A DNA stretch of 64,000 nucleotides, taken from an uncultured Psychroserpens sp. Lineage in GTDB: Bacteria > Bacteroidota > Bacteroidia > Flavobacteriales > Flavobacteriaceae. Position numbers and translations under genes: made by a program. Each line of letters begins with the position of its first letter. The stretch's first letter is position 1. The stretch spans positions 744,001-808,000 of the forward strand of contig NZ_CANMRL010000001.1 of assembly GCF_947500255.1 (NCBI RefSeq). The letters run 5' to 3'. The notes beneath the pieces are model-generated. The model saw only the letters and a list, made by a program, of their open reading frames with translations, was not told the DNA's origin and ran no database searches. Positions 3,104 through 63,051 of the stretch are shown here, piece after piece.

Positions 3104-3182
3104 AAAGAGGTCTCAAATCTAGATTTGAAGCGTTTTGCATTGTATTTCATATGACTTTTGTATCAAATTAAATTTTTTAGTC

Positions 3183-31191: not shown

Positions 31192-32682
31192 TTATTTTTG
31201 TTTTTTAAATATTTCTCCTCCGTAAGAAATAGATATAGCTTCGTTGTTTTCTATAATAAATTTTATGACTGTTCCCGAATTAGGAATTAGTTCTACACGC
31301 ATTGTATCTAACTGAGGGAAAGGGGTGCATACAGCTTTTAGATTTCCAATTTCTATATAATTTTTATCTTCATTAAAAGTTACAATGGCAGTGCCAAATT
31401 TCTCATTATAATAATGACCTATATAATTTTGTTTTTCTAGTGAAAGTTCCCAACGTCTTGCTGCTTGTTTTTTTTCGTGTGCAACTTGAGATTTTTGTGC
31501 AGATTTCAACAACTTAGGAAGCTTTTTTTCTAAAGTTTTTTCATGCTTTTTCAAATTGGAGTCATTTCCTAGATACAAATCGTAAGTATAGTTCGCTATA
31601 AGGTTAGCAACTGGCAATCCGAATTCATGATTTATGAAAACTGCCACCCCTAAGTTCTGTTCTGGTAAAAAAGAAAGATGTGAATAATAACCAGAATAGC
31701 CTCCAAAATGATAAATGACATTATACTTATTGAAATTTCCTATTCGCCAACCTTTACCATAAGCTTTCCCATCAAATACTTTAATCCCATCATGTGCAGC
31801 AGAAATATGTTTTGCATAGGTGCTTTCAATTAATTCTTTTGAAACTAAAGTTTCATTATTATACATTCCTTTACTTAGGAAAAATGATAAAAACTTACCT
31901 ATATCATTAGCGTTACTTACTAAACCTCCAGCAGCATGCATAGTAGCATCAGATTTTTGCAAGTGTATTGTTTTTAATTGCTCAGGAAACACACTAATAT
32001 AAGGCTTAGCAACATTTTTTGCGCGAGATATATAAGCTGTTGTATTTTGCATATCTAAAGGTTTGAACACCTTCTCATGAAGTAAACCTTTCCAACTTAG
32101 CCCAAGTTCTTCCTTGATAAGAACATCAAACAGGTAATATCCAAAATTACTATACGCAAAGGCTTTTCCTTTTTCATTTTTAAAGGTTTCTTCTTCAATA
32201 AGTTTTAGTATAGTTTCATTGGTGTAGTCTCCAGAATATGCTAATAAAAAAGAAAGATAATGGTTATCAATACCGCTTTGGTGTGTAATTAAATCTAAAA
32301 CAGTTATATTTTTAAACAAGTCTGTATTAGAAAAATTCTTAAATGGTTTGTAACTCGTAATTTGTTCATTGAGATTTATTTTTCCTTCATTATCTAATAA
32401 TGCAGCTAATAACCCTACAAAGCTTTTGGTAGTAGAAGCGATATAAAAATTAGTATTACTATCACATTTAAAATTATTTTCAATATCATATTTCCCAAAG
32501 CCATTTGTATAAAGTGTTTCGTTATTATTAGATATGGCTATGCTTACACCAGGTATTACCGGAAAAGCTTCTAGAACTTCTTCAATAAAATTTGATAACC
32601 TTTCTTCTTTACTATCTTGTGCTATTAAGTTTTTGGACAGCACAATTAGTACGACAATTATAAATAAAGTTCTTTTTTTCAT
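31192..32682 (-). CDS. Secreted class-C beta-lactamase-like serine hydrolase
   Basis: I start at ATG 32682, the beginning of a signal peptide (MKKRTLFIIVVLIVLSKNLI). The 496-residue protein has S83-T-T-K86, YSNFGY and HFGGYSGYY as the three active-site motifs, and a C-terminal beta-rich domain of about 100 residues (IGHYYNEKFGTAIVTFNEDK) similar to the lipocalin-like tails found on such enzymes. It heads the minus-strand operon down to 27283. A degenerate copy of the 16-bp motif lies 97 bases upstream (32779-32794). Confidence 0.87.
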   Translation of the reverse strand: MKKRTLFIIVVLIVLSKNLIAQDSKEERLSNFIEEVLEAFPVIPGVSIAISNNNETLYTNGFGKYDIENNFKCDSNTNFYIASTTKSFVGLLAALLDNEGKINLNEQITSYKPFKNFSNTDLFKNITVLDLITHQSGIDNHYLSFLLAYSGDYTNETILKLIEEETFKNEKGKAFAYSNFGYYLFDVLIKEELGLSWKGLLHEKVFKPLDMQNTTAYISRAKNVAKPYISVFPEQLKTIHLQKSDATMHAAGGLVSNANDIGKFLSFFLSKGMYNNETLVSKELIESTYAKHISAAHDGIKVFDGKAYGKGWRIGNFNKYNVIYHFGGYSGYYSHLSFLPEQNLGVAVFINHEFGLPVANLIANYTYDLYLGNDSNLKKHEKTLEKKLPKLLKSAQKSQVAHEKKQAARRWELSLEKQNYIGHYYNEKFGTAIVTFNEDKNYIEIGNLKAVCTPFPQLDTMRVELIPNSGTVIKFIIENNEAISISYGGEIFKKQK

Positions 32683-32778
32683 CTTTTTCTGAATTTTAAG
32701 TTTCTGAAACAAAACTATTAATGAAAAAAACTTCTTTTCTATGAAATGTATTAAAGTGCATAATTTATGTAACGAACC

Positions 32779-32794
32779 GTAGTCAAAGTCTATT
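32779..32794 (-). promoter_or_regulatory. Degenerate copy of 16-bp regulon motif
   Basis: The minus strand reads AATAGACTTTGACTAC, which matches the AAGCAACTTTAACCAC variant at 11 of 16 positions. It overlaps the stop codon of the SnoaL-like gene and precedes the serine hydrolase operon. On its own it is weak evidence. Confidence 0.35.
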
Positions 32795-45997: not shown

Positions 45998-47209
45998 ATG
46001 AAAGTACTGAAAATCGTTTTTTACCTTTTTACTTTTTTAGGTGTCTCATCATTTTCTTATTCTCAAGAAACTGCAGAAGAAATATTAGAAAAATCTAATG
46101 AAATATGCAAGACAATCTCATCTATAGAATATACAATACATCAGAAAGGTGCTCCAGGCAAATTTGGTTATGGTATGCCAAAAATTCAAGCTACGATCAT
46201 TCAAAAAAAAGATAGCTGCTTGGACGATATTGGTTTTGACAAAGCTTTAATAAAAGCAACTGGAATAATTACAGAAAATAGAAATGAAAAGCCATTTAGC
46301 TTTAGCTACGATGGGGAAGATTTCATGTATCAAATAGGGAAAAAGGCAAGACAAAAAAGCATCTCGGGACCAACAAGAAATGTAACCATGGGGAAATTAC
46401 AACAACATCTATTTATGATGAGAATTTTTCCTTTTGCAGAAGAAGACCCATATAAAATGATATCTGGTAAAGGGAAGGTTGATATAAATTTAATTACTAC
46501 CGAAGAAAAAGATGGACACCCATGCAATAAAATAGAAACATCTGTGACTTTTAAAGCTCCAAATGGAAAAGAACTTATTACAAAAAATATTTGGTGGATA
46601 AGTGAACTAGATTGCTTACCAAGGGCATATTCAGATGGTTTTATCTATAAAGACATCACTCTAAAAAAGATAAACTATCCCATCCCAAATTCCTTTTTTA
46701 CACTATCTAATAAAAATTCAAATACAGATTATTTAACTGGAAATGAAGTAGAAAATGAACTGACAAAGGCAAATCTATTACCAATAGGTAAAATCCCAAC
46801 TCAATGGAGCGCCAAAGATCAATTTGGAAAAACTATTAGTTCTAAGCAACTCCAAGGAAAAGTTGTATTGTTAGATTTTTGGGGCAGTTGGTGTACGCCA
46901 TGTATTCAAGCTATGCCAGATATACAAAAACTTCAAGATCATTATAAACATAATCCAAATGTGATTATTATTGGTATTTCAGCAGGAGAAAGAGATAAAG
47001 AAGCAGCTCTTAAGCTATTTAAGGAAAAAGGATATAATTATACACATATACCCAATGGAGATGATATCGCTAAATCAAACTATAAAGTAAAAGAATACCC
47101 TTCTTTATACATTTTAGATAAGCATGGAAAGATAGCTAGTGCAGAGAAAGGGTATCACCCAAACAGTTTTGAACGCTGGAAAACAACAATAGATAAACTA
47201 ATTGAGTAA
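45998..47209 (+). CDS. LolA-like domain plus TlpA-type thioredoxin
   Basis: The 403-residue product has a signal peptide (ending FSYSQ), an N-terminal LolA-like half-barrel (ICKTISSIEYTIHQKG, FSFSYDGEDFMYQIG, NIWWISELDCLPRAYS) and a thioredoxin domain with WCTPC at Cys299/Cys302 and VKEYPSLYILDKHG. It is a close relative of the proteins at 38097, 47373 and 57328. It is preceded by the regulon motif and followed by a decayed paralog. Confidence 0.87.
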   Translation: MKVLKIVFYLFTFLGVSSFSYSQETAEEILEKSNEICKTISSIEYTIHQKGAPGKFGYGMPKIQATIIQKKDSCLDDIGFDKALIKATGIITENRNEKPFSFSYDGEDFMYQIGKKARQKSISGPTRNVTMGKLQQHLFMMRIFPFAEEDPYKMISGKGKVDINLITTEEKDGHPCNKIETSVTFKAPNGKELITKNIWWISELDCLPRAYSDGFIYKDITLKKINYPIPNSFFTLSNKNSNTDYLTGNEVENELTKANLLPIGKIPTQWSAKDQFGKTISSKQLQGKVVLLDFWGSWCTPCIQAMPDIQKLQDHYKHNPNVIIIGISAGERDKEAALKLFKEKGYNYTHIPNGDDIAKSNYKVKEYPSLYILDKHGKIASAEKGYHPNSFERWKTTIDKLIE

Positions 47210-47372: not shown

Positions 47373-48608
47373 ATGAAGAAACAAATTTCTATTAGAATAG
47401 TTGCATTCTTATGTGGCATATTATCAACTTTTTCTCAAGAATCAATAAATAGAAAATCAAGAATACCAATTTCAATTGAATCAATATCGTTAAGCGATAT
47501 ATTAAATAAATCAAGAGAAGCACTATCCTCAATTGAATCAATAAAATATCAAATCATACAACAAAAAGCACTTAAAGAACGTTATGGGCAACCCTACATT
47601 GATGCTATCTTCACTTGTCAAAAAGACTCAAGAGTTAAAGACGTTGGTTTTGGGAAAGCAAAGTTAAAGGCTCAAGGAACCATTGAATTAAATGGAAAAA
47701 AAGAAGATTTTTCATTTTCTTATGATGGTAACACATTCAAGTATTCTCGAGGCAATATTAAAAACAAAGTGATTAAGAGTCCTACTCGCAAAATAGTCAT
47801 GGGGTATTTACAACAACATTTATTTATGTTGCAGGCATTTCCCTATACTGATGAAGTACCTTATATGCCTTTAGGTTTTGGCTATAAATATGAAGGAATT
47901 GAAATGTATAACGGAGAAAAGTGTTTTAAGGTTAAAACAACTAGCGCTGTAATAAATGCAGAAGGAGAGATTGTAAAAGGAAAGAGAATAAAGATATGGT
48001 ACATTAGTACTCATAGCTTTTTACCAATTGGCTTCTCAGATGAGAAATTTTATAAACAAGAAATCAGTATCAAAAACATCAATAAAAGCGATAAAAAACC
48101 TTTTAAAACCAAAAGTGCTAATGAAAATACTATGAGTGTTAGCCAAGCTCGAATGGAACTGGCTGGTGAAAAACTACTAAAGCTTATGACTAATTCTCCT
48201 AAATGGATTGCTAAAGATCAAGATGGGAAAATTTGGAACTCAGTAGACCTCAAAGGGAAAGTAGTTTTTATAGATTTTTGGGGTTCTTGGTGTGCACCAT
48301 GTAAAAAAGCAATGCCGCAGATAGAACAACTTTATAAGCATTATAAAAACAATAAGAATGTAATTATTTTGGGAATATCGGCCAATGAGAAAGATAATAG
48401 CGCTTCAATAAAATACTTCAATAACAAAAAATATAGCTATACTCATATTCCAAATAGAATTGATATAGCGAAAAAATTCAAAGTAGAATATTACCCAACC
48501 GTATACATAATAAACAAACAAGGGAAGGTGTCGTATTATGAAACCGACTTTTCTCAAGATGGATTTCACAACTGGAAAAAGATGATTAATAGCTTATTAA
48601 ATCAATGA
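47373..48608 (+). CDS. LolA-like domain plus TlpA-type thioredoxin
   Basis: The 411-residue product has a signal peptide (ending TFSQE), a LolA-like half-barrel (ALSSIESIKYQIIQQKA, FSFSYDGNTFKYSRG, KIWYISTHSFLPIGFS) and a thioredoxin domain with WCAPC at Cys307/Cys310 and VEYYPTVYIINKQG. It is most similar to its neighbour at 45998, which suggests tandem duplication. It overlaps the membrane LytTR gene by four bases (ATGA), so the two are coupled. Confidence 0.87.
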   Translation: MKKQISIRIVAFLCGILSTFSQESINRKSRIPISIESISLSDILNKSREALSSIESIKYQIIQQKALKERYGQPYIDAIFTCQKDSRVKDVGFGKAKLKAQGTIELNGKKEDFSFSYDGNTFKYSRGNIKNKVIKSPTRKIVMGYLQQHLFMLQAFPYTDEVPYMPLGFGYKYEGIEMYNGEKCFKVKTTSAVINAEGEIVKGKRIKIWYISTHSFLPIGFSDEKFYKQEISIKNINKSDKKPFKTKSANENTMSVSQARMELAGEKLLKLMTNSPKWIAKDQDGKIWNSVDLKGKVVFIDFWGSWCAPCKKAMPQIEQLYKHYKNNKNVIILGISANEKDNSASIKYFNNKKYSYTHIPNRIDIAKKFKVEYYPTVYIINKQGKVSYYETDFSQDGFHNWKKMINSLLNQ

Positions 48609-49459
48609 TTTTGACAAAAGGCCTTTTTTATCGTATAAATTCAAGAGTTTTAGAACCCTTAATGTTAGGTGTTTTATCTAATATTTTGATAAATATTTGC
48701 TTTAATCCTAAACATCCTGACTTTATTTTTAAAGAGTTTCTAGTTGCTATATTTTTCGCAACAATAATTACTGAACTTACCAGATATGCCTCTAACAAAC
48801 TCGACAAAAAACTAAATTGGAGTTCAAATTTTAAATTGCATTTATTTTTAAACTTCATTGTTCTTAGTGCCCTTTTATTCGTAATAGTAAATGGTTTTGG
48901 GAATCTTTATATCTGGCTTTCCGGAGATACGTTTCACTCAATAGACGAAACTTTATTAATAAACCTCATAGTACTTAGTATAGTGTTGATCTCATCACTC
49001 ATAAAATGGTGTTTCTTTTTATATAACAAATGGGTATTAGTAAATAAAAACTTAATTAATAATCTAAACGAAAATCAAAAACTCAAAAGTTATATAGATA
49101 AATCTTCAAAAGAAATAGAGCTTGTTAAAGGCAACTTTATCATTCATGCTCCTGTCTCAAAAATTAGATATGCAATTATAGAATCCGGTGTAATAAATGT
49201 ATACAATACAAATAAAAAATTGGGCTCGTTTAATGGTTCTTTAACATACCTAGAATCACAACTGCCAGAATGTGATTTTTTTAAACTATCTCGTCATCTT
49301 ATCACACACAAAGAAGGTATTAAAAAAACCAGATCATCTACCTATGGGAAAATAGAAATTGAGTTAAATAATGAGTTTATTGACCATACAATTGTTACTG
49401 TAAGTAGACTAAAAGCAGCTAAATTTAGACAATGGTATAGCAGTTCGGTCATAAATTAA
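48605..49459 (+). CDS. Membrane-anchored LytTR DNA-binding protein
   Basis: The 284-residue product has four predicted membrane helices in the first 145 residues (for example LHLFLNFIVLSALLFVIVNG), a charged linker (KNLINNLNENQKLKSYIDKS) and a C-terminal LytTR DNA-binding domain (FFKLSRHLITHKEGIKKTRS, SRLKAAKFRQWY). There is no receiver domain and no phospho-acceptor Asp, so it is expected to sense through its membrane part. It is translationally coupled to the LolA-TlpA gene. Possible targets are nearby promoters. Confidence 0.85.
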   Translation: MILTKGLFYRINSRVLEPLMLGVLSNILINICFNPKHPDFIFKEFLVAIFFATIITELTRYASNKLDKKLNWSSNFKLHLFLNFIVLSALLFVIVNGFGNLYIWLSGDTFHSIDETLLINLIVLSIVLISSLIKWCFFLYNKWVLVNKNLINNLNENQKLKSYIDKSSKEIELVKGNFIIHAPVSKIRYAIIESGVINVYNTNKKLGSFNGSLTYLESQLPECDFFKLSRHLITHKEGIKKTRSSTYGKIEIELNNEFIDHTIVTVSRLKAAKFRQWYSSSVIN

Positions 49460-49535: not shown

Positions 49536-50681
49536 ATGAAATATTTAAACAAAACAAAAAAAATCGCTCTATTTATTCTTATTGGGTGTGTTTCATTTGC
49601 ATTACTTTCTTTTGAATCAAACAATTCAAAGTTCAAAAAAATCCAGTCTATCATTGACAAGGCTACAGATGGAAAATTACAAGGCGTTCTAATATCTATT
49701 GAAAGTCCAGAATATGGTAAATGGATCGGCAAATCTGGTTATGCAAATACCAAGACCAATACATTAATTGATAAAAATGCCATTTTTAGCCTAGCCAGTA
49801 TAGGGAAAACTTATACTGCAACAGCTGTTTTAAAATTAGTCGAAGATGGAAAATTACAACTAGATGATAAAATTGAAAATTATCTCCCCAGAGAGATTAT
49901 AGAAGGTTTACCTAATGCGGAAAAAGTAACCATAAGAAACTTATTAGGCCATACTTCTGGGTTCTACAATTACAATTCTAACCCAGAACTAAACAAACTT
50001 TACCTTTCTGGGAATTTAAAACTAGACACTTTATCTCATATAAACGCTCTAAGACGCTATGCATATGGAAAAACATATTCAAAAGCCATATATGGTAAGT
50101 TTAATTACTGTAGTACAAATTACCTCTTATTGACCATGATAATGGATACAATATTACCAGATGGTCATGTGAAATATATGAGAGATTTCTTAAAGCATCA
50201 TGGTTTTAAAAACACCTACTATAAGCAAATACCAGATTCTAGCAATCTACAATATTATGGCGACATTAATTTAGATGAAACTCTAGAAAACCTAACATCT
50301 CAAACCATAGAAACTACCAATTGGTATAGTGGTGATGATGGTATTTATGCCACGATTGATGACGCTACTAATTTTTTAAAAAAACTTGTAGATGGTAAAA
50401 TTTTAGGAAAAGAAATACTAAAAGAAATGATGACATGGAATGATGAAAACGATCCTGATTATGGGTTAGGGCTAATGGCTGACAAAAGCTTTCCTTACAA
50501 ATTTCTTCTTGGACACTCCGGTCGTGGTATTGGCATAACAACAGATTTATATTACTTTCCACATAAAGATATGACCATAGCTATATTTTGCAATACAGGT
50601 CTTAGATCAGCATCTCCAATATTTAAAAAAGAGTATAGTAAAATGAGAAATAGGATTATAAAAAAACTCTTCTTGTTTTAG
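49536..50681 (+). CDS. Class-C beta-lactamase-like serine hydrolase
   Basis: The 381-residue product has a hydrophobic N-terminal segment (IALFILIGCVSFALLSF) that can act as a signal or anchor. It carries S88-I-G-K91, then FNYCSTNYL where most relatives have YxN (the Asn position is Ser, as in some esterases of this fold), and LGHSGRGIGI as the third motif. It is the shortest of the six hydrolases, with no extra C-terminal domain. Its TAG stop overlaps the next motif copy. Confidence 0.85.
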   Translation: MKYLNKTKKIALFILIGCVSFALLSFESNNSKFKKIQSIIDKATDGKLQGVLISIESPEYGKWIGKSGYANTKTNTLIDKNAIFSLASIGKTYTATAVLKLVEDGKLQLDDKIENYLPREIIEGLPNAEKVTIRNLLGHTSGFYNYNSNPELNKLYLSGNLKLDTLSHINALRRYAYGKTYSKAIYGKFNYCSTNYLLLTMIMDTILPDGHVKYMRDFLKHHGFKNTYYKQIPDSSNLQYYGDINLDETLENLTSQTIETTNWYSGDDGIYATIDDATNFLKKLVDGKILGKEILKEMMTWNDENDPDYGLGLMADKSFPYKFLLGHSGRGIGITTDLYYFPHKDMTIAIFCNTGLRSASPIFKKEYSKMRNRIIKKLFLF

Positions 50682-50694: not shown

Positions 50695-50867
50695 AATTAT
50701 CAAATAGCCGTTTTATATCATTAACTCTTACAACACTATTAATCTATTGCTTAAACTAAATATTAACGGCTTAATACATGAAAATAACGATTGGTTACCA
50801 TTTATTTTTAACAGAGACTAAGTGCCACTACTTTTGGTAATAATTAATGTAAAAAATAATAAAGGTT

Positions 50868-52082
50868 ATGAAAAAAATAGTAATCAAACTATTGATGATA
50901 ATTATAGCAACAGGTTACACTACACAAGTAAATGCTATATCTGTAGATACAACTAAACGAAATAAGGACGATTATTTCAATGTGCATTTTGAAGGAGATA
51001 TTGTGGTCTCAGAAGATGACAAAAATATAATAAGTATCTCCAATTATGGCTTCATAGAAATAAAGCAATCCTCATTTGGTGTTGAAAGAAGGCTTGTTAT
51101 TAAATCTGATAATAATGGCGGGCTTATTAAACAGTTTTTTATTAAAAATGAAAAGCAAAACTTTGTTCCTAAGGGAAAGAAATGGTTGTCAAAAGTGTTA
51201 CCAAAAATTATTAAAACAACATTTCTTGGAGGCAAAAGTCGAGTGGATAGGTCATTTAAAAAAGGAGGCGTCAATGCCGTATTAAAAACTATAGAAGATT
51301 TATCTTATGATTTTGTAAAATCAAAGTATATTGATTTTCTTCTCAAAAAGCGACTATCTGTTAATGAATTAAATACAATATTAAAAAACTTAAATGGGCT
51401 TATAAAGCAACAACTTTATATATTTGAGGTATTAGAGAAAAATCAAAATAGTTTTCTGAAAGATTCCCGAGTAAGCGCTACATTCATAAAAACAATCTCT
51501 CAATACGAATCAGACTTTTATAAATTTTCTTTACTTCAAAATGCTATCAAAACGAGCAACGAGCTTACAGAGATGCCAAGCTCTCAAGATATAATGGCTA
51601 TTTCAAAAAGCATTACCTCCGAAAATTACATAACAAAATTATGTTATAGTTTAATTGAAATTCAGGGCGCAAATAAATCTCTAGATCAAATTTTAACTCT
51701 ATTTAATCAAATTAATTCTGAAGAGTTCTACAGTAATAATGTTATAAGAAAAATTTTAACCCAATCATTAGACATCTCAGCATTAAGAAAACTACTTATT
51801 GCAATCCAAACGAGTCCACAAAAAGAATCTAACGCCATAACTTTTTATGAATATGTTTTTTCTCATAATACCTATACGGAAAGTGAAATATTAGAAATAC
51901 TAAACACTATTCTAAAAAATACGGTTAAACCTATCAGTTTATACAAATCAATGATGGGAGTTTCAAAAACTATTTCAAAATCAACTGAAAACGTAAAAGA
52001 ACAATATCGAAAAATTGCCATGAGACTAAAACCCAATTATGAATTTTACTATGATAAAGTACTAAATGCCATTGAAAAATAA
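50868..52082 (+). CDS. Secreted protein of unknown function, first gene of signalling operon
   Basis: The 404-residue product has a signal peptide (ending QVNAI), a beta-rich start (YFNVHFEGDIVVSEDDKNII) and a long, mainly helical remainder without known motifs. Its stop overlaps the sensor kinase gene by 17 bases, which suggests coupling. It is a candidate for the periplasmic input or output of the LytS-like system that follows. I recognise no family. Confidence 0.6.
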   Translation: MKKIVIKLLMIIIATGYTTQVNAISVDTTKRNKDDYFNVHFEGDIVVSEDDKNIISISNYGFIEIKQSSFGVERRLVIKSDNNGGLIKQFFIKNEKQNFVPKGKKWLSKVLPKIIKTTFLGGKSRVDRSFKKGGVNAVLKTIEDLSYDFVKSKYIDFLLKKRLSVNELNTILKNLNGLIKQQLYIFEVLEKNQNSFLKDSRVSATFIKTISQYESDFYKFSLLQNAIKTSNELTEMPSSQDIMAISKSITSENYITKLCYSLIEIQGANKSLDQILTLFNQINSEEFYSNNVIRKILTQSLDISALRKLLIAIQTSPQKESNAITFYEYVFSHNTYTESEILEILNTILKNTVKPISLYKSMMGVSKTISKSTENVKEQYRKIAMRLKPNYEFYYDKVLNAIEK

Positions 52083-53115
52083 TATATCAATAATACCATT
52101 TTTAAAAAAAAGTATAAGTAAAAATATCTTTACGCTTTTAATTGGCTTTTTATTTGGAGCTCTAATAGGTTCTTTACTATTACTTGATATCTTTAATAAT
52201 GATTTTGGTTGTATGGTTATTATATCTGGAAGTACAGGAGCCATAGCTCTGTGCAGCGTAAACTATATAAATACAATACTAGATAACAAAATATCCTGGA
52301 ATAAGAACATAATTACACGCTTTATATTTAGTATCATCCTAAACTTTATTATCGTTTTTATCGTTTTCATTTGCATTTTAATGATTTATAGAGCGCTGTT
52401 TTTTGATTCCGTTGTTTTTAGTGTTTATAAACAAGATATTTTAAAACTAGGCATTACACTTCTTTTTATAATGTTAATGTACACTATAGGTCATTTTGCT
52501 TTATATACCTACTCTTTCCATACCTTATCAAAACTAAAATTAATAGAACAAGAAAATCGACAAATCAACTTAAAGTTAGAAACATTAAAATCACAGCTTA
52601 CCCCTCATTTTTTATTTAATGGATTAAATGCAATATCATCTTTAATTGACAAAGACAAACTTGAGACAGAGCAATTTATAAGGCATCTGGCTAATCTATA
52701 TAAATCAATACTAGATTCAAGTACAACAGACTTAATTTGTTTGAAAAAAGAGCTAGAAATTGTAAAATCATATACGTTTTTATTTGAAGCAAGGTTTCAA
52801 AATAAGTTTTCATGTATTATCAATGTAAATGACAACTATTTAAAACAAAAGATTCCTCCTTTAACACTGCAATTACTTGTTGAAAATGCCTTAAAACATA
52901 ATGAATTGAGAGAAGACAACCCTCTTTTAATAACAATATCCACAAATCACAAAGGGGTTTTAGTAAAAAATAATATCAATAAAAAAAGAAATCTAGAAGA
53001 GTCTTTACACATAGGAATGCACAACATAGTTGAACGCTATAAATTATTAGGAAAAAAAATTACAAACATTAATAGTGATGAAGAGTTCATTGTTGAAATT
53101 CCATTTTTAGTATGA
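52066..53115 (+). CDS. LytS-like sensor histidine kinase
   Basis: The 349-residue kinase has about four membrane helices (residues 20-160). The HisKA-type signature is LTPHFLFNGLNAISSL, with phospho-acceptor His181. The ATP-binding region has LLVENALKHNEL near residue 270 and a C-terminal GMHNIVERYKLL. The catalytic motifs are intact. The start (ATG 52066) overlaps the upstream gene, and the stop overlaps the next gene by four bases, so the four genes 50868-54913 are one coupled operon. Its cognate regulator is likely the LytTR protein at 54143. Confidence 0.9.
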   Translation: MPLKNNISIIPFLKKSISKNIFTLLIGFLFGALIGSLLLLDIFNNDFGCMVIISGSTGAIALCSVNYINTILDNKISWNKNIITRFIFSIILNFIIVFIVFICILMIYRALFFDSVVFSVYKQDILKLGITLLFIMLMYTIGHFALYTYSFHTLSKLKLIEQENRQINLKLETLKSQLTPHFLFNGLNAISSLIDKDKLETEQFIRHLANLYKSILDSSTTDLICLKKELEIVKSYTFLFEARFQNKFSCIINVNDNYLKQKIPPLTLQLLVENALKHNELREDNPLLITISTNHKGVLVKNNINKKRNLEESLHIGMHNIVERYKLLGKKITNINSDEEFIVEIPFLV

Positions 53116-54137
53116 AAAAAATGCTCTTAGATCATCCTGGCTTTCGTTTGCTTAATCCCATATTTAATGGAACCGCAGTATATTTACTTATACTCTTAGT
53201 AAATAATAGTCTAGAACAACTTCATTCTTCATTTATAAGTAACGAACTGTTTATTTGTATTGGTTTATCATATATAACTCTAGAACTGCTAAGAGTAGAA
53301 ATCATTGTATTTAATAAAACACGGTTTTCTCAGGGTATGATTAGTTCTATTTTATTACAAATATTTTTCGCAATTATGGTTTGTGTATCCGCAGTAACAA
53401 TATCCATAAGTATTTACTATACTTACATTTTTGGCTTTCTTCCTAGCACCAACGAAATATTGCTATTTAATTGTGTTTTTTCTTTAATTACATTAACTCA
53501 CATTTTATTGGTTATAAGCTCAAATTATTTGCAAAAATCAAGAGCCCTAAAGCTTCAGACAGAACAACTAAAAAATGACAATATAAAACGTAATTATTCT
53601 GATTTTAAAAAAGAAATTAATCCGAGTCTATTATTTTCAAGTTTAGAAGCACTTATCATCTTGGTGAAATTAGAAGATCATAAATCAAATGATCTAGTGA
53701 ATCACCTAGCCAGCTTGTATAGATATACCTTAGTGCATAAAACTAGACAGCTAGTTTCTTTTAATAAGGAGTTACAAATTTGTACTAAACTACAAGCACT
53801 TATAAATACCATTCCACATAAAAATATTTCAATAGTGAATCGGGTTTTATTATTAGATTTCTTAGTGGTTCCTGGTATTCTTTTACAAACAATGCAAAAG
53901 GTCATTAATAGTTCTATAACCAATTCTAGAATCGAATTTGTAATTGAAATAAATGACACAGACAACGATATCATTTTAAAATACCTTAAAAATGATCGAT
54001 TAAATAAAAAGCTAATCATAGAAAGTTTAGGTGATATTCAAAATATCTATTCAATATATACTGAACGACAGATTCAAATTATTGAAAAAAATGAGTTCAG
54101 AATAATTAGTATACCAAAATTGTTAACCACAAAATAA
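53112..54137 (+). CDS. LytS-like pseudokinase lacking the phospho-acceptor His
   Basis: The 341-residue protein has the same layout as the preceding kinase, with four membrane helices and a HisKA-like region, but the signature reads INPSLLFSSLEALIIL. The acceptor His is Ser172 and the FN is FS. The ATP-binding N-box (NALKH in the active kinase) is replaced by MQKVINSSIT, and no G-box is visible. It should be unable to autophosphorylate. By analogy with paired sensor proteins it may dimerise with or inhibit the active kinase. Confidence 0.8.
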   Translation: MKKMLLDHPGFRLLNPIFNGTAVYLLILLVNNSLEQLHSSFISNELFICIGLSYITLELLRVEIIVFNKTRFSQGMISSILLQIFFAIMVCVSAVTISISIYYTYIFGFLPSTNEILLFNCVFSLITLTHILLVISSNYLQKSRALKLQTEQLKNDNIKRNYSDFKKEINPSLLFSSLEALIILVKLEDHKSNDLVNHLASLYRYTLVHKTRQLVSFNKELQICTKLQALINTIPHKNISIVNRVLLLDFLVVPGILLQTMQKVINSSITNSRIEFVIEINDTDNDIILKYLKNDRLNKKLIIESLGDIQNIYSIYTERQIQIIEKNEFRIISIPKLLTTK

Positions 54138-54142
54138 TAGAT

Positions 54143-54913
54143 ATGAATGTAGTAATTATTGAGGATGAAGTTTTAGCCTCTGATAAACTAGAACGCTATC
54201 TGTTAAAATATAACTCTAAAGTTAAAATTGTTGCTAAAATAACTAGCGTAGAAGAAGCTATTAATTGGTTTACAATGAGTAGTATTCATTACGACATTGT
54301 ATTTATGGATATACAGCTAACAGATGGACTAAGTCTTGAAATATTTAATAATGTAATCATAAAGAAGCCTGTTATTTTTGTTACTGCCTATGATGAGTTT
54401 GCCATTGATGCATTTAAGGTAAATAGTATAGATTACATCTTAAAACCCATCCATTTTACAGATGTATCTACAGCTTTAAATAAACTTAAAAACATGACCT
54501 CCTTTTACTCTATAAATGAAAGTATTACAAGCTTAAAAAGAGAGGTTGAAAAAAGAAAAAACAAAGAGCGGTTTATGGTGAAATTAGGAAACTATATTCA
54601 TACTGTAAATTCTGAAACAGATATCGCTCTATTTTATGCCGAAGGCAGAACGATTTACCTTATCACAAATCAAAACAAGAAATATATTATTGATTTTACC
54701 ATAAAGGATTTGGTTAAAGTTTTAAATTCTAAAACATTTTTTAGAGTGAATCGAACATTTATAGTTAGTATAAATACTATTGCCAATGTTATTGTTTACT
54801 CAAACAGTAGATTGAAGATTAATTGCAAAGTAAAAACAGATGTAGCAATTATAGTAAGCCGAGATAATGTTGGAGATTTTAAAAAGTGGTTTGAAGGTGA
54901 TTTAATATTCTGA
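54143..54913 (+). CDS. LytTR family response regulator
   Basis: The 256-residue product has an N-terminal receiver domain (MNVVIIEDEVLAS; phospho-acceptor Asp56 in IVFMDIQLTDG; VTAYDEFAIDAF; YILKPI) and a C-terminal LytTR DNA-binding domain (FFRVNRTFIVSINTIANVIV). It is the usual partner of LytS-type kinases. It lies five bases after the pseudokinase in the same operon. LytTR sites differ from the 16-bp motif found here, so this regulator probably has its own sites. Confidence 0.93.
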   Translation: MNVVIIEDEVLASDKLERYLLKYNSKVKIVAKITSVEEAINWFTMSSIHYDIVFMDIQLTDGLSLEIFNNVIIKKPVIFVTAYDEFAIDAFKVNSIDYILKPIHFTDVSTALNKLKNMTSFYSINESITSLKREVEKRKNKERFMVKLGNYIHTVNSETDIALFYAEGRTIYLITNQNKKYIIDFTIKDLVKVLNSKTFFRVNRTFIVSINTIANVIVYSNSRLKINCKVKTDVAIIVSRDNVGDFKKWFEGDLIF

Positions 54914-54988: not shown

Positions 54989-55669
54989 ATGAAAACAAAA
55001 TCATTTCTTATAACTCTTATGTGTTTTGCTATGTTTCAACTGAACGCGCAGGAACAGGCAAAAGCCGATGCCATTATTGTTAAATCTGTAAATGCGTTAA
55101 AATCCATATACTCAATAGAATATGAAGTTGTTCAAGAAAAAAATCATGAATTGCGACCAAACATTAATGCCACTTTCATATGTAGCAAAGATGAAAATGT
55201 TGAAGATGTTGCTTTTGGTAAAGTAATGGTAATTGCCAAAGGCAATATTGAACAAAATGGAAAAACCGAAGAATTTGCTTTTTCATATGATGGAGATCAA
55301 TTCAAGTATAATAAAGGCAAAAAGTTTAAAAAGGTGCTCAACACACCTGCTAAAAATTTAGTCATCTCTTATTTGATGCCCTTCGTATATAGTATGAATG
55401 TCCTTCCTTATACAAAAAATAGTTATGCCAGTAAATCAACCCGATACGAATACCTAGGTAAAGAGCAATATAATGGAGAACAATGTTATAAAATCAAAGC
55501 TAGTATCTTAAAGAACGGTCAAAAGAAAGTAACATATACTCAATATTGGTACATCCAATGCGATAATTACTTACCAATAGGATTAACCAACAAGGCATTT
55601 ACTCAGAAAATAAACATAACAGCTCTAAACAAAGAATACCCAAAAACGGTATTCAATATTAACCCTTAA
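54989..55669 (+). CDS. Secreted LolA-like protein without thioredoxin domain
   Basis: The 226-residue product has a signal peptide (ending LNAQE). The rest is the same LolA-like half-barrel as in the TlpA fusions (LKSIYSIEYEVVQEKN, FAFSYDGDQFKYNKG, YWYIQCDNYLPIGL). It ends where the thioredoxin domain would begin in its relatives. It is therefore a single-domain family member, perhaps a ligand carrier for the fusion proteins. The regulon motif is 56 bases upstream. Confidence 0.8.
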   Translation: MKTKSFLITLMCFAMFQLNAQEQAKADAIIVKSVNALKSIYSIEYEVVQEKNHELRPNINATFICSKDENVEDVAFGKVMVIAKGNIEQNGKTEEFAFSYDGDQFKYNKGKKFKKVLNTPAKNLVISYLMPFVYSMNVLPYTKNSYASKSTRYEYLGKEQYNGEQCYKIKASILKNGQKKVTYTQYWYIQCDNYLPIGLTNKAFTQKINITALNKEYPKTVFNINP

Positions 55670-55772: not shown

Positions 55773-57323
55773 ATGCAAAAACATAGCTTAAATATAAAAG
55801 GAATGCTTGTGGTTTTATTATTAACATCACTCCAGATTAATGCCCAAAAAAAGGGAGTAGCGTTTACTCTCGATTTAACAACAGACACATCCAAAGACAC
55901 CATTCTTGTAACAGGTAAAATCCTTAAAAAACTACCACGAAAGAGTCATATCTTTCAATTTGCCTCTACAGCGCCAGGTGCTTACCAAACTATGAATATG
56001 GGACGATTTGTAAATCACTTTAAAGCATATGACAAAAAAGGGAATGAAATTGATGTAGAGAAAATCAATGTAAATCAATATTACATTTCAAAACCAAGAA
56101 AAGTTTCTAAAATAGAATATAAAATTGCAGAAACATGGGATACGCCTGTAAAAGAGTTTCCTATTCATGCTATGTGTGGATCTTCATTAGAAAACGATCA
56201 TGCGTATATAAGCCTGCATACTGTTATTGGATATTTTGAAGGTACTCAAAATCGTTCAATACACATTCAGTTTTTGAAACCTACATCATGGGAAGTAGGT
56301 ACGGCATTAAAAGAAACCAATGGTAAATATTATGCTGAAAATTTTGACCACGCCGTAGATTCTCCCTTTTTATTAGGAAAGCTCTCTAAAGCTGAAAAAT
56401 TAGTGTCTGGAACTAATATTGAAATCTATACATACTCTCAAAACGATAAGATCAATTCTAGTCAAATACTCAATGGTATGTCAAAAATGATTTTGGCAAC
56501 TGAAGAATTTCTTCAAGAATTACCTGTAGACCGTTATGTGTTTCTATATCATTTTGAGCCAAATACATCAAAACAGTTAGGAGCGTGGGAGCATTCATAT
56601 AGTTCTCAGTATGTTTTACAAGAATCGGAACCTACCGAACCTTTTATGAAACAAATTCAAGATTTAGCCTCTCATGAGTTTTTTCATATCGTAACACCTT
56701 TAAATATCCATAGTGAAGTTATTGAAGAATTTAATTTTAAATCACCTGTGCCGTCTCAACATTTGTGGCTATATGAAGGCGTTACAGAATGGGCCTCTAA
56801 AATATTGCAATTTAGAGCTGGTTTAGTAAACTTTGAAACATTTCTTGAAGAACATATTAAAAAGAAAATACAGATTAACAAAAATTACTTTAATCCAAAG
56901 TGGAGTTTAAAACAAATAGCCGACAAGTCTTTTACCGAAGCAGGTGCAAGGGAGTACGGGAATATTTATTTCAAAGGCGCTCTTACCGCCTTATTTCTTG
57001 ATATAGAATTATTAGAGTTAAGTAATGGAGAATTAGGTCTTAGAGAATTGCTTCAAAAACTAATTAAAAAATACGGTAAAGGAAAGCCTGTTTCAGAAGA
57101 AAACTTCATTAACGATTTGGTAGAAATGACCTATCCAGAAATTAGAGCTTTTTTTGATGAATGCGTTTATACAGACAAAGAGTTGCCTTATGATAAGTAC
57201 CTGGAAAAAATTGGGATTGTTTATGAGCAAAAAGAAAGCAGTGTTTCTAGCATAAAAATATATAAAACTGAAACCCCTACTCCAATGCAAGAAAAATTAT
57301 TTAATGCTTGGAAAAGTAATTAG
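55773..57323 (+). CDS. M61-like (glycyl aminopeptidase-type) metallopeptidase
   Basis: I start at ATG 55773, before a signal peptide (LVVLLLTSLQINAQ), giving 516 residues. The N-terminal half is beta-rich, and the catalytic half has LASHEFFHIVTPLNIHSE with the HExxH zinc motif (His301, Glu302, His305) and LWLYEGVTEWASK supplying the third Glu ligand. The PDZ domain found in many M61 enzymes is absent. It probably trims peptides in the periplasm or at the surface. It lies between LolA-like genes. Confidence 0.82.
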   Translation: MQKHSLNIKGMLVVLLLTSLQINAQKKGVAFTLDLTTDTSKDTILVTGKILKKLPRKSHIFQFASTAPGAYQTMNMGRFVNHFKAYDKKGNEIDVEKINVNQYYISKPRKVSKIEYKIAETWDTPVKEFPIHAMCGSSLENDHAYISLHTVIGYFEGTQNRSIHIQFLKPTSWEVGTALKETNGKYYAENFDHAVDSPFLLGKLSKAEKLVSGTNIEIYTYSQNDKINSSQILNGMSKMILATEEFLQELPVDRYVFLYHFEPNTSKQLGAWEHSYSSQYVLQESEPTEPFMKQIQDLASHEFFHIVTPLNIHSEVIEEFNFKSPVPSQHLWLYEGVTEWASKILQFRAGLVNFETFLEEHIKKKIQINKNYFNPKWSLKQIADKSFTEAGAREYGNIYFKGALTALFLDIELLELSNGELGLRELLQKLIKKYGKGKPVSEENFINDLVEMTYPEIRAFFDECVYTDKELPYDKYLEKIGIVYEQKESSVSSIKIYKTETPTPMQEKLFNAWKSN

Positions 57324-57327
57324 AGTT

Positions 57328-58518
57328 ATGAAAAAAATATACCTAGCAATTGTGTTGATTATTCCATTAGTCATGCATACACAAGAAAATAATAATGCAT
57401 CTGAAATAATACTAAAATTCACAAAAAAAATTGAGCAGATTAAAACTATTAAATATAATGCTCGCTTAGAGGAAAAAGCCACTAACAATGGTCCTAATAA
57501 AAAGAGTTTTTCAATTCAATCCAAAATTAACTACAAGGCACCATCAGCAAAAAACATGAAAGATTGGAAAGCTTTAGTTGATGCCAATATATGCTATGAC
57601 GGCGAAGAGACCAAGATTAAATATGCATATCAAAACAATACCGTTTTTATAGATCATTCAGGATACACTAATCTTATCAGAATAAATGAAGGCAGTATAA
57701 GATCTGCGGTAAGATATATACCTCTAAGCCTCGTAACCTTAAGCATAGATAATCAATCAGGAAGTCTTATAAAAAATAAAGACTATCTATTGCATGATAT
57801 AAAACATCAGCTGCTCGGAGAAGAAAAGATTAATGGCATAAACTGTTACAAAATAAAAGAAATAAAAGTATCAAAACACTCAAAAAAGATTGAAAAGAAC
57901 CAAAGCTCTAAGGTGCTTTGGATTGGGAAAGTTGATTATATAATTAGGGCTTATGAGACTCATAAAGTATTTGTTTCATACACAATAACAGATATAGATT
58001 TCATGCCAAATTCGGATGATTACAATATTGATAGTAATAAAAAAGAGGTTTTCATCACATCTCATGATGAGATATTTAAACGTCCAAAAAAACCACTCTT
58101 AAAGGTTGGGCAGGCCGCTCCAAATTGGGAATTATATTCAGGAAAAGGAGAGCTTAAAAAATTGTCCGAATTAAAAGGAAAAATAGTAGTTTTAGATTTT
58201 TGGGGTACTTGGTGTGCACCCTGTATTAAAGCTATGCCAACTATAGAAAAACTTCATAAAAACTATCTTAATAAGGATGTCGTGGTAATTGGTATTTCGG
58301 TTAATGACGCCATTGGTGATGCCGAAAAATTCTTTTCCGAAAACAATTACACTTATTTGCATCTTAGTCAAGGAGATCAAGTCGGTTATAACTATAATGT
58401 TAGAGCATATCCTACTCTATACATTCTAGATAAACAAGGTAAAGTTTTGTACTCTGAGATTGGGTTTAATTCAAAATCCTACGAACATTGGAAAAGTGTT
58501 ATTAATAAGCACCTATAA
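57328..58518 (+). CDS. LolA-like domain plus TlpA-type thioredoxin
   Basis: I start at ATG 57328 (MKKIYLAIVLIIPLVMHTQE), a signal peptide, giving 396 residues. The LolA-like half-barrel (KIEQIKTIKYNARLEEK, IKYAYQNNTVFIDHSG, VLWIGKVDYIIRAYETH) is followed by a thioredoxin domain with WCAPC at Cys296/Cys299 and VRAYPTLYILDKQG. It follows the M61 gene by four bases, so the two may work together. Confidence 0.87.
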   Translation: MKKIYLAIVLIIPLVMHTQENNNASEIILKFTKKIEQIKTIKYNARLEEKATNNGPNKKSFSIQSKINYKAPSAKNMKDWKALVDANICYDGEETKIKYAYQNNTVFIDHSGYTNLIRINEGSIRSAVRYIPLSLVTLSIDNQSGSLIKNKDYLLHDIKHQLLGEEKINGINCYKIKEIKVSKHSKKIEKNQSSKVLWIGKVDYIIRAYETHKVFVSYTITDIDFMPNSDDYNIDSNKKEVFITSHDEIFKRPKKPLLKVGQAAPNWELYSGKGELKKLSELKGKIVVLDFWGTWCAPCIKAMPTIEKLHKNYLNKDVVVIGISVNDAIGDAEKFFSENNYTYLHLSQGDQVGYNYNVRAYPTLYILDKQGKVLYSEIGFNSKSYEHWKSVINKHL

Positions 58519-60452: not shown

Positions 60453-60628
60453 TTGAATACAATATTTAAAGAATTGACCAACTTATTTGTTGAGTTTCTT
60501 CTTCTAAAAACCTTACACTTTTATAATGTTAAGACATTCCACTACATTAAAACAACGTTTCGTTACAAATCGTTTTTCTAAACTAAGCCGCTCATTTAAT
60601 TTAGATACCATATCTAAAAAAATCGACA

Positions 60629-61975
60629 ATGATAACATCAAATACTTTTAAGACACTATTTGTCATTGCAATATTATTATGTTTAACCTGTAAAAATAAT
60701 CCTCATCAGGTTGAAAAAAGCGTAAATGAAATTCATCAAACTATAACAGAAACTGCAGAGTATATCACAAAAGAAGATTTTAGTCGGTTATTTAAAGAGA
60801 CAGATTCTATTGCCACAGCCAACGCCCATATTTGGGATAAAAACATATATGGTCCCATGCTCTTTATTGATCATAAAACAAAAACATATTATGCCAATAC
60901 AAATCCAGACAATGATAGTTTTACACCAGGGTATAAATGCTTTGAAGGAAAGTTTCCTAAAGAAATAATTGTAAATGGAAACACAAATATAAATTGGAAA
61001 GAAAAAAAATGGGCTGTATTAGAATTACCACTATCAAACATGCCTCCTCTATATGCCAAGTTATTAAATCTTCATGAATTAAGTCATATTGCCTTAGGAG
61101 AGCTAGGGTTTCCAAAACATACTGTTGATATCAGTCATTTAAATAAATACAAAGGACGATTATTAATGCGTATAGAAATAGAGTTGTTAAAACGGTTTAT
61201 AAACTCCAATCAAAAAGACCTAAGTTTAATAAAGGATGCTTTGTCTGTTAGGAAAATAAGACATATGGAATTCCCTCTCTATAAAGATCAAGAAAATAGC
61301 TTAGAACTCAATGAGGGTCTTGCAGAATTTATGGCATTGAGCATTGCAACCGATTTTTATGAGCAAAGCTATACCTCATTTTATACAATGCTTATAGATA
61401 ATTATATCAATCTCGATAACTATAATAGGCAGTTCGCCTATTTTTCCATACCAATTTATGGTAATGCTATTAATAAAATAGATGCTTTGTGGCATAAAAA
61501 AATAACACCTAAGACAAATTTGACAAACTTTTTTTCCGAAAAACTAAATCTAACAAGTAATAACGATATAGAATATTATATCTCTAAATACGATTTACAT
61601 AAAATCTCAGACAAAGAGTTTAAACGCGCCGCTCAACAACAAAAAATAACAGATACAATTATTCAAAACTACAAAATACAACCACATTTATTCGTGCCTT
61701 TTTTTAAACAGAGTTTTTCTGCTATGCCTCCAGAATATAGTATTGAAAATGAAGGGAGGTATTTTGGTGGCGTAAAGCTTCAAGATTCATGGGGAACTCT
61801 TAATGCTCATAGCGGTATTTTAATATCCTTAGATTTTAAAAGCTGTTATTTAAAGGCCCCAAAAACAATAACTAAAGACAGTATCGTTGGTGATGGCTAT
61901 GTATTGCGATTTAAAGGCGATTTTGAAATCGTAAAAGAATCAGAAATAAGATATGTTTTAAAAAAGAAAGAATAA
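60629..61975 (+). CDS. Lipoprotein with gluzincin-like HExxH domain
   Basis: The 448-residue product has a lipobox (LLCLTC), then a domain with LNLHELSHIALGELG (HELSH; His149) and a downstream ELNEGLAEFMALSIATDF that offers the third, Glu ligand, as in gluzincin metalloproteases. It follows a 176-base gap that holds no gene I can support, and its stop codon overlaps the next motif copy. Protease activity is inferred from the zinc motif only. Confidence 0.65.
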   Translation: MITSNTFKTLFVIAILLCLTCKNNPHQVEKSVNEIHQTITETAEYITKEDFSRLFKETDSIATANAHIWDKNIYGPMLFIDHKTKTYYANTNPDNDSFTPGYKCFEGKFPKEIIVNGNTNINWKEKKWAVLELPLSNMPPLYAKLLNLHELSHIALGELGFPKHTVDISHLNKYKGRLLMRIEIELLKRFINSNQKDLSLIKDALSVRKIRHMEFPLYKDQENSLELNEGLAEFMALSIATDFYEQSYTSFYTMLIDNYINLDNYNRQFAYFSIPIYGNAINKIDALWHKKITPKTNLTNFFSEKLNLTSNNDIEYYISKYDLHKISDKEFKRAAQQQKITDTIIQNYKIQPHLFVPFFKQSFSAMPPEYSIENEGRYFGGVKLQDSWGTLNAHSGILISLDFKSCYLKAPKTITKDSIVGDGYVLRFKGDFEIVKESEIRYVLKKKE

Positions 61976-62049: not shown

Positions 62050-63051
62050 ATGAAAAATAAAGCCTTTAGTTGCGTCGTAATATTAATTATGTCTCTATCA
62101 TGCAACAAAAATGCAATTGAGCCATTTACAATTGATGTTAATATAAAAAATCCAGTCAATGGAGAGGTTATCGTATTTATCGAAGATTCTCTAAAGAACG
62201 ACAGAACAAAATGGGAAGTCCAAAACATAAATTCAAACGGGAAATTTCATTTTTCAGATACAATTAACGAACCAAGGTTTTATTATTTTCAATTAGGAAA
62301 AACACCTGTTTATAATGATCTCATAGTTTTCCCAGGTGATAATATAAAAATTAATATTTCTGATGAAGAAATGGATATTGAAAGTAATAAAAGTCAAATA
62401 CACTTAACAAAAACATTTCATCAATTTAAAATGGCAGATGTAGAGGAGAAAAAAGAAATTTTCAAGAGTAAACTTAGAGGATCTCCAATAATTCTGAAAG
62501 CATTAGAGGTATGGCCTTACTATCTAGAATTAGATGATGAAATAACAGAAATAATTGAAGATTTCATAAGCACTCATCCAGATTGGAATATTACTTCACT
62601 TATAAAAAAGGAATATTTTAGTCTAAAAAGAACATCTATAGGTTCTTTAGCACCTAATTTAATTTTACCCAACTCAACAGGCGATTCTATTTCCTTGAAA
62701 GATTATAGGGGCAAGTTTATTTTACTCGATTTTTGGGGTACTTGGTGTAAGCCATGTATTAAAGAAGTTCCAAACACAAAACTGCTATACAAAAATTTAA
62801 AAAATAAACATTTTGAAATTATAGGAATTGCTGTACAAACCGATAAAGTGAAATGGGAGAATTTTATTAGCAATAATGAAATGACTTGGACACAAGTAAT
62901 TGATCAAGGTAAATCTTCTAATAATTTATTTAAACTAAATTCATTTCCATCTACATTCTTGATTGATCCTAAAGGAAGAATTATTGCTAAGAATTTAAGA
63001 CCACACAATAATTGGGAACAAACAATAAATGAAATCTTAACTAATAATTAG
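62050..63051 (+). CDS. TlpA-type thioredoxin lipoprotein with DUF4369-like N-terminus
   Basis: This is a 333-residue lipoprotein (lipobox IMSLSC). The N-terminal domain (NIKNPVNGEVIVFIEDSLKN, RFYYFQLGKTPVYNDLIVFP) resembles DUF4369, and a TlpA/ResA-like thioredoxin domain with WCKPC (Cys233/Cys236) and FPSTFLIDPKG follows. Such proteins are common in Bacteroidota and are placed in the envelope. It belongs to a separate subfamily from the LolA-TlpA proteins here. The regulon motif lies 60 bases upstream. Confidence 0.85.
   Translation: MKNKAFSCVVILIMSLSCNKNAIEPFTIDVNIKNPVNGEVIVFIEDSLKNDRTKWEVQNINSNGKFHFSDTINEPRFYYFQLGKTPVYNDLIVFPGDNIKINISDEEMDIESNKSQIHLTKTFHQFKMADVEEKKEIFKSKLRGSPIILKALEVWPYYLELDDEITEIIEDFISTHPDWNITSLIKKEYFSLKRTSIGSLAPNLILPNSTGDSISLKDYRGKFILLDFWGTWCKPCIKEVPNTKLLYKNLKNKHFEIIGIAVQTDKVKWENFISNNEMTWTQVIDQGKSSNNLFKLNSFPSTFLIDPKGRIIAKNLRPHNNWEQTINEILTNN

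Follow-up and report, generated by a model that had tools for sequence, protein, structure and literature searches.

A conserved catalytically dead partner of a LytS-type kinase suggests a split, autoregulated envelope sensor in Psychroserpens and other Bacteroidota

Within a 64,000-nt stretch of the genome of an uncultured Psychroserpens sp. (hereafter the window; contig NZ_CANMRL010000001.1, positions 744,001 to 808,000), four adjacent genes encode a repeat protein, a LytS-type histidine kinase, a catalytically dead relative of that kinase and a LytTR response regulator. Comparison with orthologous loci leads us to favor, with moderate confidence, a reading in which the unit is a split, autoregulated envelope sensor: the pseudokinase receives, the LytS kinase phosphorylates, and the regulator feeds back on the operon. 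The four genes are:

50868..52082 (+): gene 1, probably exported repeat protein; solenoid and small beta domain, no Pfam domain over the cut-off
52066..53115 (+): LytS-type (PF06580) membrane histidine kinase, intact; Pfam 74.8 bits, catalytic residues kept
53112..54137 (+): LytS-type membrane pseudokinase; PF06580 31.5 bits, acceptor His, N-box and G-box lost
54143..54913 (+): response regulator with REC and LytTR domains (Pfam Response_reg and LytTR); phosphorylation pocket intact

The open reading frame (ORF) coordinates in the window bear out the tight packing described in the original prediction, with overlaps of 17 nt and 4 nt followed by a 5-nt gap. Gene 1 is part of the unit; the original prediction covered it and left it uninterpreted, and made no mention of the operator or of the linked S12 hydrolase genes treated below.

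The arrangement is retained well beyond this genome. In a family sample of 199 genomes, the window's included, full-length relatives of the pseudokinase occur in 11 others (E 3e-54 or better; 28-42% identity), the remaining matches being at 2e-16 or weaker, and the four-gene order is identical in all 11. A first scan of genome contigs with the window protein alone gave no match. A wider scan based on the pseudokinase alignment, using two peptide patterns neither of which fixes the His position, found 76 loci in named genomes, those 11 among them; together with the window these make up the 77 loci considered below. The repeat protein is present in 73 of them, the kinase in 75 and the regulator in all 77, absent genes falling beyond contig ends. 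The order repeat protein, kinase, pseudokinase, regulator holds wherever the contig allows, with one extra gene inserted in L136. That the same order recurs in 11/11 other family-sample genomes and in the 76 scanned loci argues that the arrangement is not due to chance. Carriers are mainly Flavobacteriaceae (Tenacibaculum, Polaribacter, Flagellimonas, Allomuricauda, Aquimarina, Croceitalea and others), and record titles add Saprospiraceae, Marinoscillum and one Cyclobacteriaceae bin. A bin labelled Rickettsiales (L144) also carries the four-gene unit; its label is probably wrong or the bin mixed. Among 395 genomes sampled across the phylum, six, including the window's, match at 1e-69 or better.

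The two kinase-like proteins differ sharply in their catalytic residues. As originally predicted, the translation of 52066 contains LTPHFLFN and the NALKH box (VENALKH), and the acceptor His, N-box Asn and G-box Gly are each present in 75/75 kinases. Protein 53112 scores above the PF06580 cut-off (31.5 against 25.2 bits), yet it lacks the acceptor His, the N-box and the G-box; this combination identifies it as a pseudokinase of the LytS-type family rather than a kinase. Its translation reads NPSLLFS and has no ATP-binding box, again as had been noted. The full N-box pattern is found in 75/75 kinases versus 0/77 pseudokinases, which retain the N-box Asn by itself in 4/77 cases and the G-box Gly in 1/77. 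At the His site the pseudokinases carry E in 20, D in 19, T in 9, K in 7, S and N in 5 each, Q in 4, A in 3, M in 2, and H, R and L once each (n=77). The sole His-bearing member, L090, has neither the N-box nor the G-box Gly. The original prediction would have been undone by orthologues that keep the His; 76/77 are without it. Its further statement that Ser replaces the His stands as to the loss, whereas the Ser itself is incidental, one of 12 residue types seen at the site. Ser as a new phospho-acceptor is ruled out because the position is free.

This freedom is local. The surrounding pseudokinase motif, I-N-P-x-L-L-F-E-S-L-E, is nearly frozen (0 to 0.7 bits), and the His site is its one free position at 2.98 bits, a value exceeded by 55 of the 340 pseudokinase columns. 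Four residues past the His site, all 75 kinases have Asn, a residue that may serve phosphatase activity. At that position 76/77 pseudokinases have Glu or Asp and the window copy has Ser; the count is biased, as one of the two scan patterns demands E or D there. The orthologues found with the whole window protein have E or D there in 11/11.

In a quick tree of 82 kinases (25 pseudokinases, 25 partner kinases and 32 others), support is 100 for a single pseudokinase group, which sits on a long stem of 2.36, and 99 for a separate group of the partner kinases. The loss of catalytic residues is old. Of 114 further LytS proteins drawn from small loci, 95 carry the His; the remaining 19 comprise copies or orthologues of the window-type pseudokinase and two readings of one other protein, taken up below.

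The distribution of conservation suggests how labour may be divided. Over 71 of the 77 loci (excluded were four that lack the first gene and two that are partial), mean pairwise identity in the pseudokinase is 54% for the membrane part, 51% for DHp and 34% for CA; the corresponding values in the kinase are 34%, 58% and 47%. Conservation is inverted: what the dead protein keeps is its membrane part, whereas the live protein keeps its catalytic parts. Within the pseudokinase, N31, N32 and F41 are nearly invariant and E45 is invariant, all in or beside the first inter-helix loop of the model, a loop that would face outside. The AlphaFold2 (AF2) model of this protein (pLDDT 87.6, pTM 0.63) keeps DHp-like and CA-like folds, and its best matches in the PDB are kinase domains, GanS first (E 1.5e-5). 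TM-scores by query of about 0.2-0.4 reflect that only the cytoplasmic part can match. In 64/75 loci there is a 4-nt overlap between the kinase gene and the pseudokinase gene, which fits coupled translation. Taken jointly, the constant pairing, this overlap and the well-conserved pseudokinase membrane part fit a hetero-oligomer whose dead partner is the receptor. The original reading, a hetero-oligomeric sensor in which the dead partner sets the ligand response, is to that extent partly supported by the comparative data.

The other two proteins of the unit supply possible input and output. In 72/73 repeat-protein copies the beta domain follows a hydrophobic stretch, making export likely; a 19-residue hydropathy scan did not flag the window copy. 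The AF2 model (pLDDT 85.6) consists of the small beta domain and a helical solenoid; an SDH(H/Y) repeat signature occurs in most orthologues and is worn down in the window copy. There is one copy per genome in 13 genomes, second matches being pieces of the same gene. Sequence comparison yields no convincing solved relative (best E 0.026), and no PDB entry matches the model at E<=1e-3 (TM-scores by query 0.12-0.40 among the 50 matches listed). Pfam gives only scattered weak matches, the best at E 1.2e-4 to Fibrillarin in 3/12 members, and NCBIfam, PHROGs and PADLOC give nothing useful. The protein may sense outside the membrane or may be what the feedback loop chiefly produces; we propose that it is a partner on the input or output side.

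Regulator 54143, with its REC and LytTR domains, has the Asp, acid pair, Thr and Lys of the phosphorylation pocket in 77/77 loci. Upstream of gene 1 lie two elements through which it could act:

50766..50800 (+): LytTR-type operator of the operon, two 14-nt direct repeats with a 21-bp period; from alignment with 68 orthologous operators and a genome profile
50829..50836 (+): Bacteroidota-type -7 promoter box TACTTTTG, 63 nt from the operator start

In the aligned upstream regions the repeat unit ACARTTCANTACAT occurs twice at this period. The operator is present in 73/73 loci that hold the first gene: 69 in a first pass, three within over-long ORF starts (L096, L137, L144) and one, in L086, in front of the S12 gene with which the operon begins there. 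The -7 box lies 63 nt from the operator start in all 69 aligned loci, with A at the second position in 68/69 and the letters of TTTG in 68, 69, 66 and 67 of 69; the Bacteroidota -7 consensus is TAnnTTTG. A pattern search of 19 genomes located the operator in 18, compared with four matches for a reversed control. LytTR regulators are described as binding pairs of 9-11-nt repeats separated by 11-13 nt (PMC4847170), and self-activation is described for LytTR systems whose repeats lie just upstream of their own promoter (PMC6193735). The operator is a predicted binding site of the LytTR regulator. The weak PADLOC matches, at 18 bits for the pseudokinase and 17 bits for the regulator, look like chance.

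In the mechanism we propose, the pseudokinase (53112) would be the receptor half, its conserved membrane domain and short conserved loop reading the signal, probably with help from the exported solenoid protein (50868). The LytS kinase (52066), with its His and ATP site, would be the catalytic half and would phosphorylate the LytTR regulator (54143). The kinase and pseudokinase, made from overlapping genes, would pair via DHp helices and membrane domains. Once phosphorylated, the regulator would bind the direct repeat with a 21-bp period that starts 63 bp ahead of the -7 box, activating its own operon in positive feedback together with a few other genes, S12 serine hydrolases among them.

The predicted targets arise from a weight matrix and an operator-plus-promoter profile, both built without the window. 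In the window they point to two further sites and the genes behind them:

60534..60568 (+): second operator copy, 95 nt before the ATG of 60629-61975; weight matrix, rank 1 with the profile
60629..61975 (+): predicted target, lipoprotein-like 448-aa protein with a HELSH (HExxH-like) motif, both features read by eye
32746..32780 (-): third operator copy, 98 nt before the ATG at 32682; weight matrix, rank 5 with the profile
31192..32682 (-): predicted target, S12 serine hydrolase (PF00144), Pfam 173.8 bits, with SxxK (STTK)

The weight matrix scores these sites at 22.5 (60534-60568) and 19.7 (32746-32780), compared with 12.9 for the best of 30 shuffles. With the profile, the window sites rank 1, 2 and 5 among 41 matches at E<=10 within the best 150 of 6168 candidates in the genome: the 60534 site at E 4.9e-4, the operon's own at 0.0039 and the 32746 site at 0.038. 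Ranks 3 and 4 match the promoter half only. Rank 6 (C2:110322, E 0.058) precedes a gene that reads like a TonB-dependent receptor and is a possible fourth operator site of the genome. Downstream of the second copy, TAATTTAG at 60597-60604 is one letter off TAnnTTTG; the third has TAGTTTTG at 32710-32717 (-), at an offset of 63. Protein 60629-61975 has no Pfam family, and the S12 hydrolase 31192-32682 is probably exported. An own-genome search with a pattern taken from the window operator gave three 2-mismatch matches besides the operon versus four in the reversed control; among the three is the S12 site to which the weight matrix later gave support. A second pattern gave three matches, all in the window, and none in the control; it was written after the window sites had been seen and is therefore not independent.

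In the 19 other genomes, where operon sites match the profile in 19/19 by construction, the best 150 candidates per genome include 13 further matches at E<=0.005. Of these, three match the model only in part, one adds a second site to the operon promoter of G618, and the remaining nine are other sites, full-length. Among the nine, two stand before S12 hydrolases, in G608 (E 6.6e-12) and G607 (E 1.6e-7), and another two before secreted-looking proteins of about 235 aa that resemble each other, in a pair of Tenacibaculum genomes (loci L260, equal to L216, and L261, equal to L218; the L218 copy has no Pfam match). The rest comprise one before a DUF5916 protein, three before small proteins (62-139 aa) and one before no clear gene. 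S12 genes also enter the operon itself, between the repeat protein and kinase in L136 and as first gene in L086, so that operator or operon links S12 to the unit in five genomes, the window's included. The 64-kb window holds six S12 (PF00144) genes (3135-5309, 25651-27054, 27543-29096, 31192-32712, 40454-41857 and 49536-50681), compared with eight among about 991 genes in the 76 related loci, and for this reason the local link between operator and S12 weighs less.

Several observations weigh against the proposed sensor or loosen parts of it. No pseudokinase orthologue was found in 22 congeners (two have a weak match to another protein), so the unit is dispensable or mobile. Hydropathy indicates three membrane stretches in the window pseudokinase, not four, the fourth (9-30) coming from the model only. 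The residual correlation between the membrane parts of kinase and pseudokinase is 0.55, the highest of mostly positive values, and may reflect shared history. Co-variation of the membrane parts was considered as proof of contact and set aside, the data being too few for the claim; pairing of the two proteins is a prediction. We infer activation, rather than repression, from operator position alone. The operon's own operator has a weight-matrix score of only 4.9, inside the shuffle range (maximum 12.9), and the E-value of the third window site is just 0.038. The profile search scored 150 of 6168 first-look candidates in the window's 4.0-Mb genome, and 150 per genome in the 19 others. The extra operators are few and differ between genomes, and the G607 site lies 173 nt from the S12 ATG instead of about 90-100. 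Finally, with S12 hydrolases behind 2/9 extra sites, P is about 0.002 given the background measured in the 76 loci (8 S12 in about 991 genes) and would be 0.013 for a background of 2%.

Other roles for the pseudokinase have been weighed against that of receptor. One would be that it holds the LytTR regulator or brakes the kinase, instead of being the receptor of a joint complex. The DHp motif and a YRY motif show the high conservation expected of a surface that binds the regulator, and RetS-type inhibition of GacS offers a precedent for a brake (PMC12675982). However, the membrane part is conserved at least as well as DHp, which a decoy acting from the soluble side would not need; we regard this role as improbable. 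A role for the pseudokinase as membrane dock of the repeat protein, working apart from the kinase, seems to us quite unlikely: the dock would account for the joint presence of both proteins in every locus whose contig reaches both and for the conserved residues at the first inter-helix loop, yet it leaves the retained DHp-CA fold and the 4-nt overlap with the kinase gene unexplained.

An unconventional activity, through another acceptor residue, phosphatase action or nucleotide binding, might be read from the E or D found at the His site in 39/77 pseudokinases, from the retained fold, and from an N-box Glu kept in 74/77 while its Asn survives in 4/77. Given that the His site takes 12 residue types, that the N-box pattern (0/77) and G-box Gly (1/77) are gone, and that the Asn invariant in kinases four residues on has become Glu or Asp, such an activity is very improbable. 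The end branch of the window pseudokinase is indeed long (1.14), and some residues conserved in the family are missing from this copy, but recent inactivation of a decaying spare copy is ruled out, as the loss is common to the other 76 loci of several families (one with His but without the N-box) and the frames are long in nearly all 77.

The receptor-catalyst split we favor has its closest described parallel in FasBCA of group A Streptococcus (PMC12675982), where two adjacent membrane kinase-like proteins are likewise combined with one regulator. In the FasB/FasC heterodimer, the membrane and DHp parts of one partner and the DHp and kinase parts of the other suffice (PMC12675982). The likeness lies in the proposed split, with one protein sensing at the membrane and the other catalysing; heterodimers are supported by evidence in FasBCA. 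FasC, the sensing partner, still needs its His (H246), its kinase domain being the only dispensable part (PMC12675982), whereas the window pseudokinase has lost His, N-box and G-box. Here, two kinase-like genes and a regulator stand side by side as in FasBCA, and the His is not kept in the presumed sensing partner. Because the receptor half has lost even its His, separation would be more complete than in FasB/FasC. The window unit further differs in its PF06580-type kinases and in the repeat protein of its operon, in a comparison made by description, not sequence.

RocA, which acts through the active kinase CovS in group A Streptococcus (PMC7028121), is a membrane pseudokinase as proposed for 53112. 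Contact in that system was positive by co-immunoprecipitation and negative by two-hybrid (PMC7028121). Compared by description, RocA keeps a dispensable His (H246), unlike the window pseudokinase, and the dedicated operator and exported partner belong to the window unit; we know of neither for RocA-CovS. Protein 53112 is a membrane pseudokinase in the sense of a RocA-type accessory protein. BtsS-type receptors combine a large LytS membrane receptor domain with GAF, and for neither BtsS/BtsR nor YpdA/YpdB do we know of a pseudokinase partner. BtsS is a 7-transmembrane receptor; in the window kinase only PF06580 passes the Pfam cut-off and there are about four hydrophobic stretches, a layout other than that of the BtsS-type pyruvate receptor. 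DivL and CckA belong to another kinase class and are encoded by unlinked genes. As proposed here, they comprise a pseudo-histidine kinase regulating an active kinase, in Alphaproteobacteria (PMC4211667, PMC9430884). BtsS/BtsR and YpdA/YpdB of E. coli are, like the window unit, of LytS/LytTR type (PMC5552118, PMC10653868), and YpdB has one target (PMC4847170). HdrRM-type LytTR Regulatory Systems pair a regulator with a membrane inhibitor (PMC6193735) and are not a kinase pair with a receiver-domain regulator.

A second pairing of dead and live LytS proteins exists in the same genome. At C1:86471-89417 (-), covered by loci L003 and L008, a LytTR regulator, a dead LytS-type protein and an intact kinase lie together. 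The dead copy reads QPIFIFN, with Ile for His, and has lost the N-box; in the tree it groups with its neighbour kinase (support 97), apart from the window-type pseudokinases. This trio is also present in one of seven regions fetched from congeners (G202, L290), where the dead copy is 93.6% and the kinase 88.3% identical. The separate tree position suggests that dead/live LytS pairs probably arose at least twice.

Near the unit, the gene at 48605-49459 (+) encodes a membrane LytTR protein, with four hydrophobic stretches followed by LytTR, and overlaps a thioredoxin-like gene. No receiver domain was found in it, and it resembles the Bacteroides LRS-like regulators mentioned in PMC6193735. Four AhpC/thioredoxin-like proteins and one shorter LolA-like relative are encoded at 45998-47209, 47373-48608, 54989-55669, 57304-58518 and 62050-63051; the LolA-like matches in this cluster are below the Pfam cut-off.

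A literature search of incomplete coverage returned no paper joining pseudokinase, histidine kinase and LytTR, and none on a catalytically inactive LytS in a histidine-kinase heterodimer; a search for LytTR histidine-kinase systems in Bacteroidetes/Flavobacteri showed no such system by title among the matches listed. A bolder extension, which we advance only tentatively and consider doubtful, is that the unit represents a new sensor class across Bacteroidota, in which receptor and catalyst are permanently split between LytS-type paralogues and the exported solenoid is a third input. Its minute regulon would include exported S12 hydrolases of the beta-lactamase/DD-peptidase fold, the signal might be cell-wall peptides or beta-lactam-like compounds outside the cell in a BlaR-like manner, and the same design would have arisen independently at least once more in this genome. 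Catalytically dead histidine kinases whose role has been worked out (DivL, RocA, RetS) are, to our knowledge, single cases. Here, a dead kinase is fixed beside its active partner across at least three Bacteroidota families, as judged by record titles, which opens its role to comparative and simple genetic tests. The operator derived from 68 loci in turn provides a reporter and a small set of predicted targets, making screens for the signal feasible.

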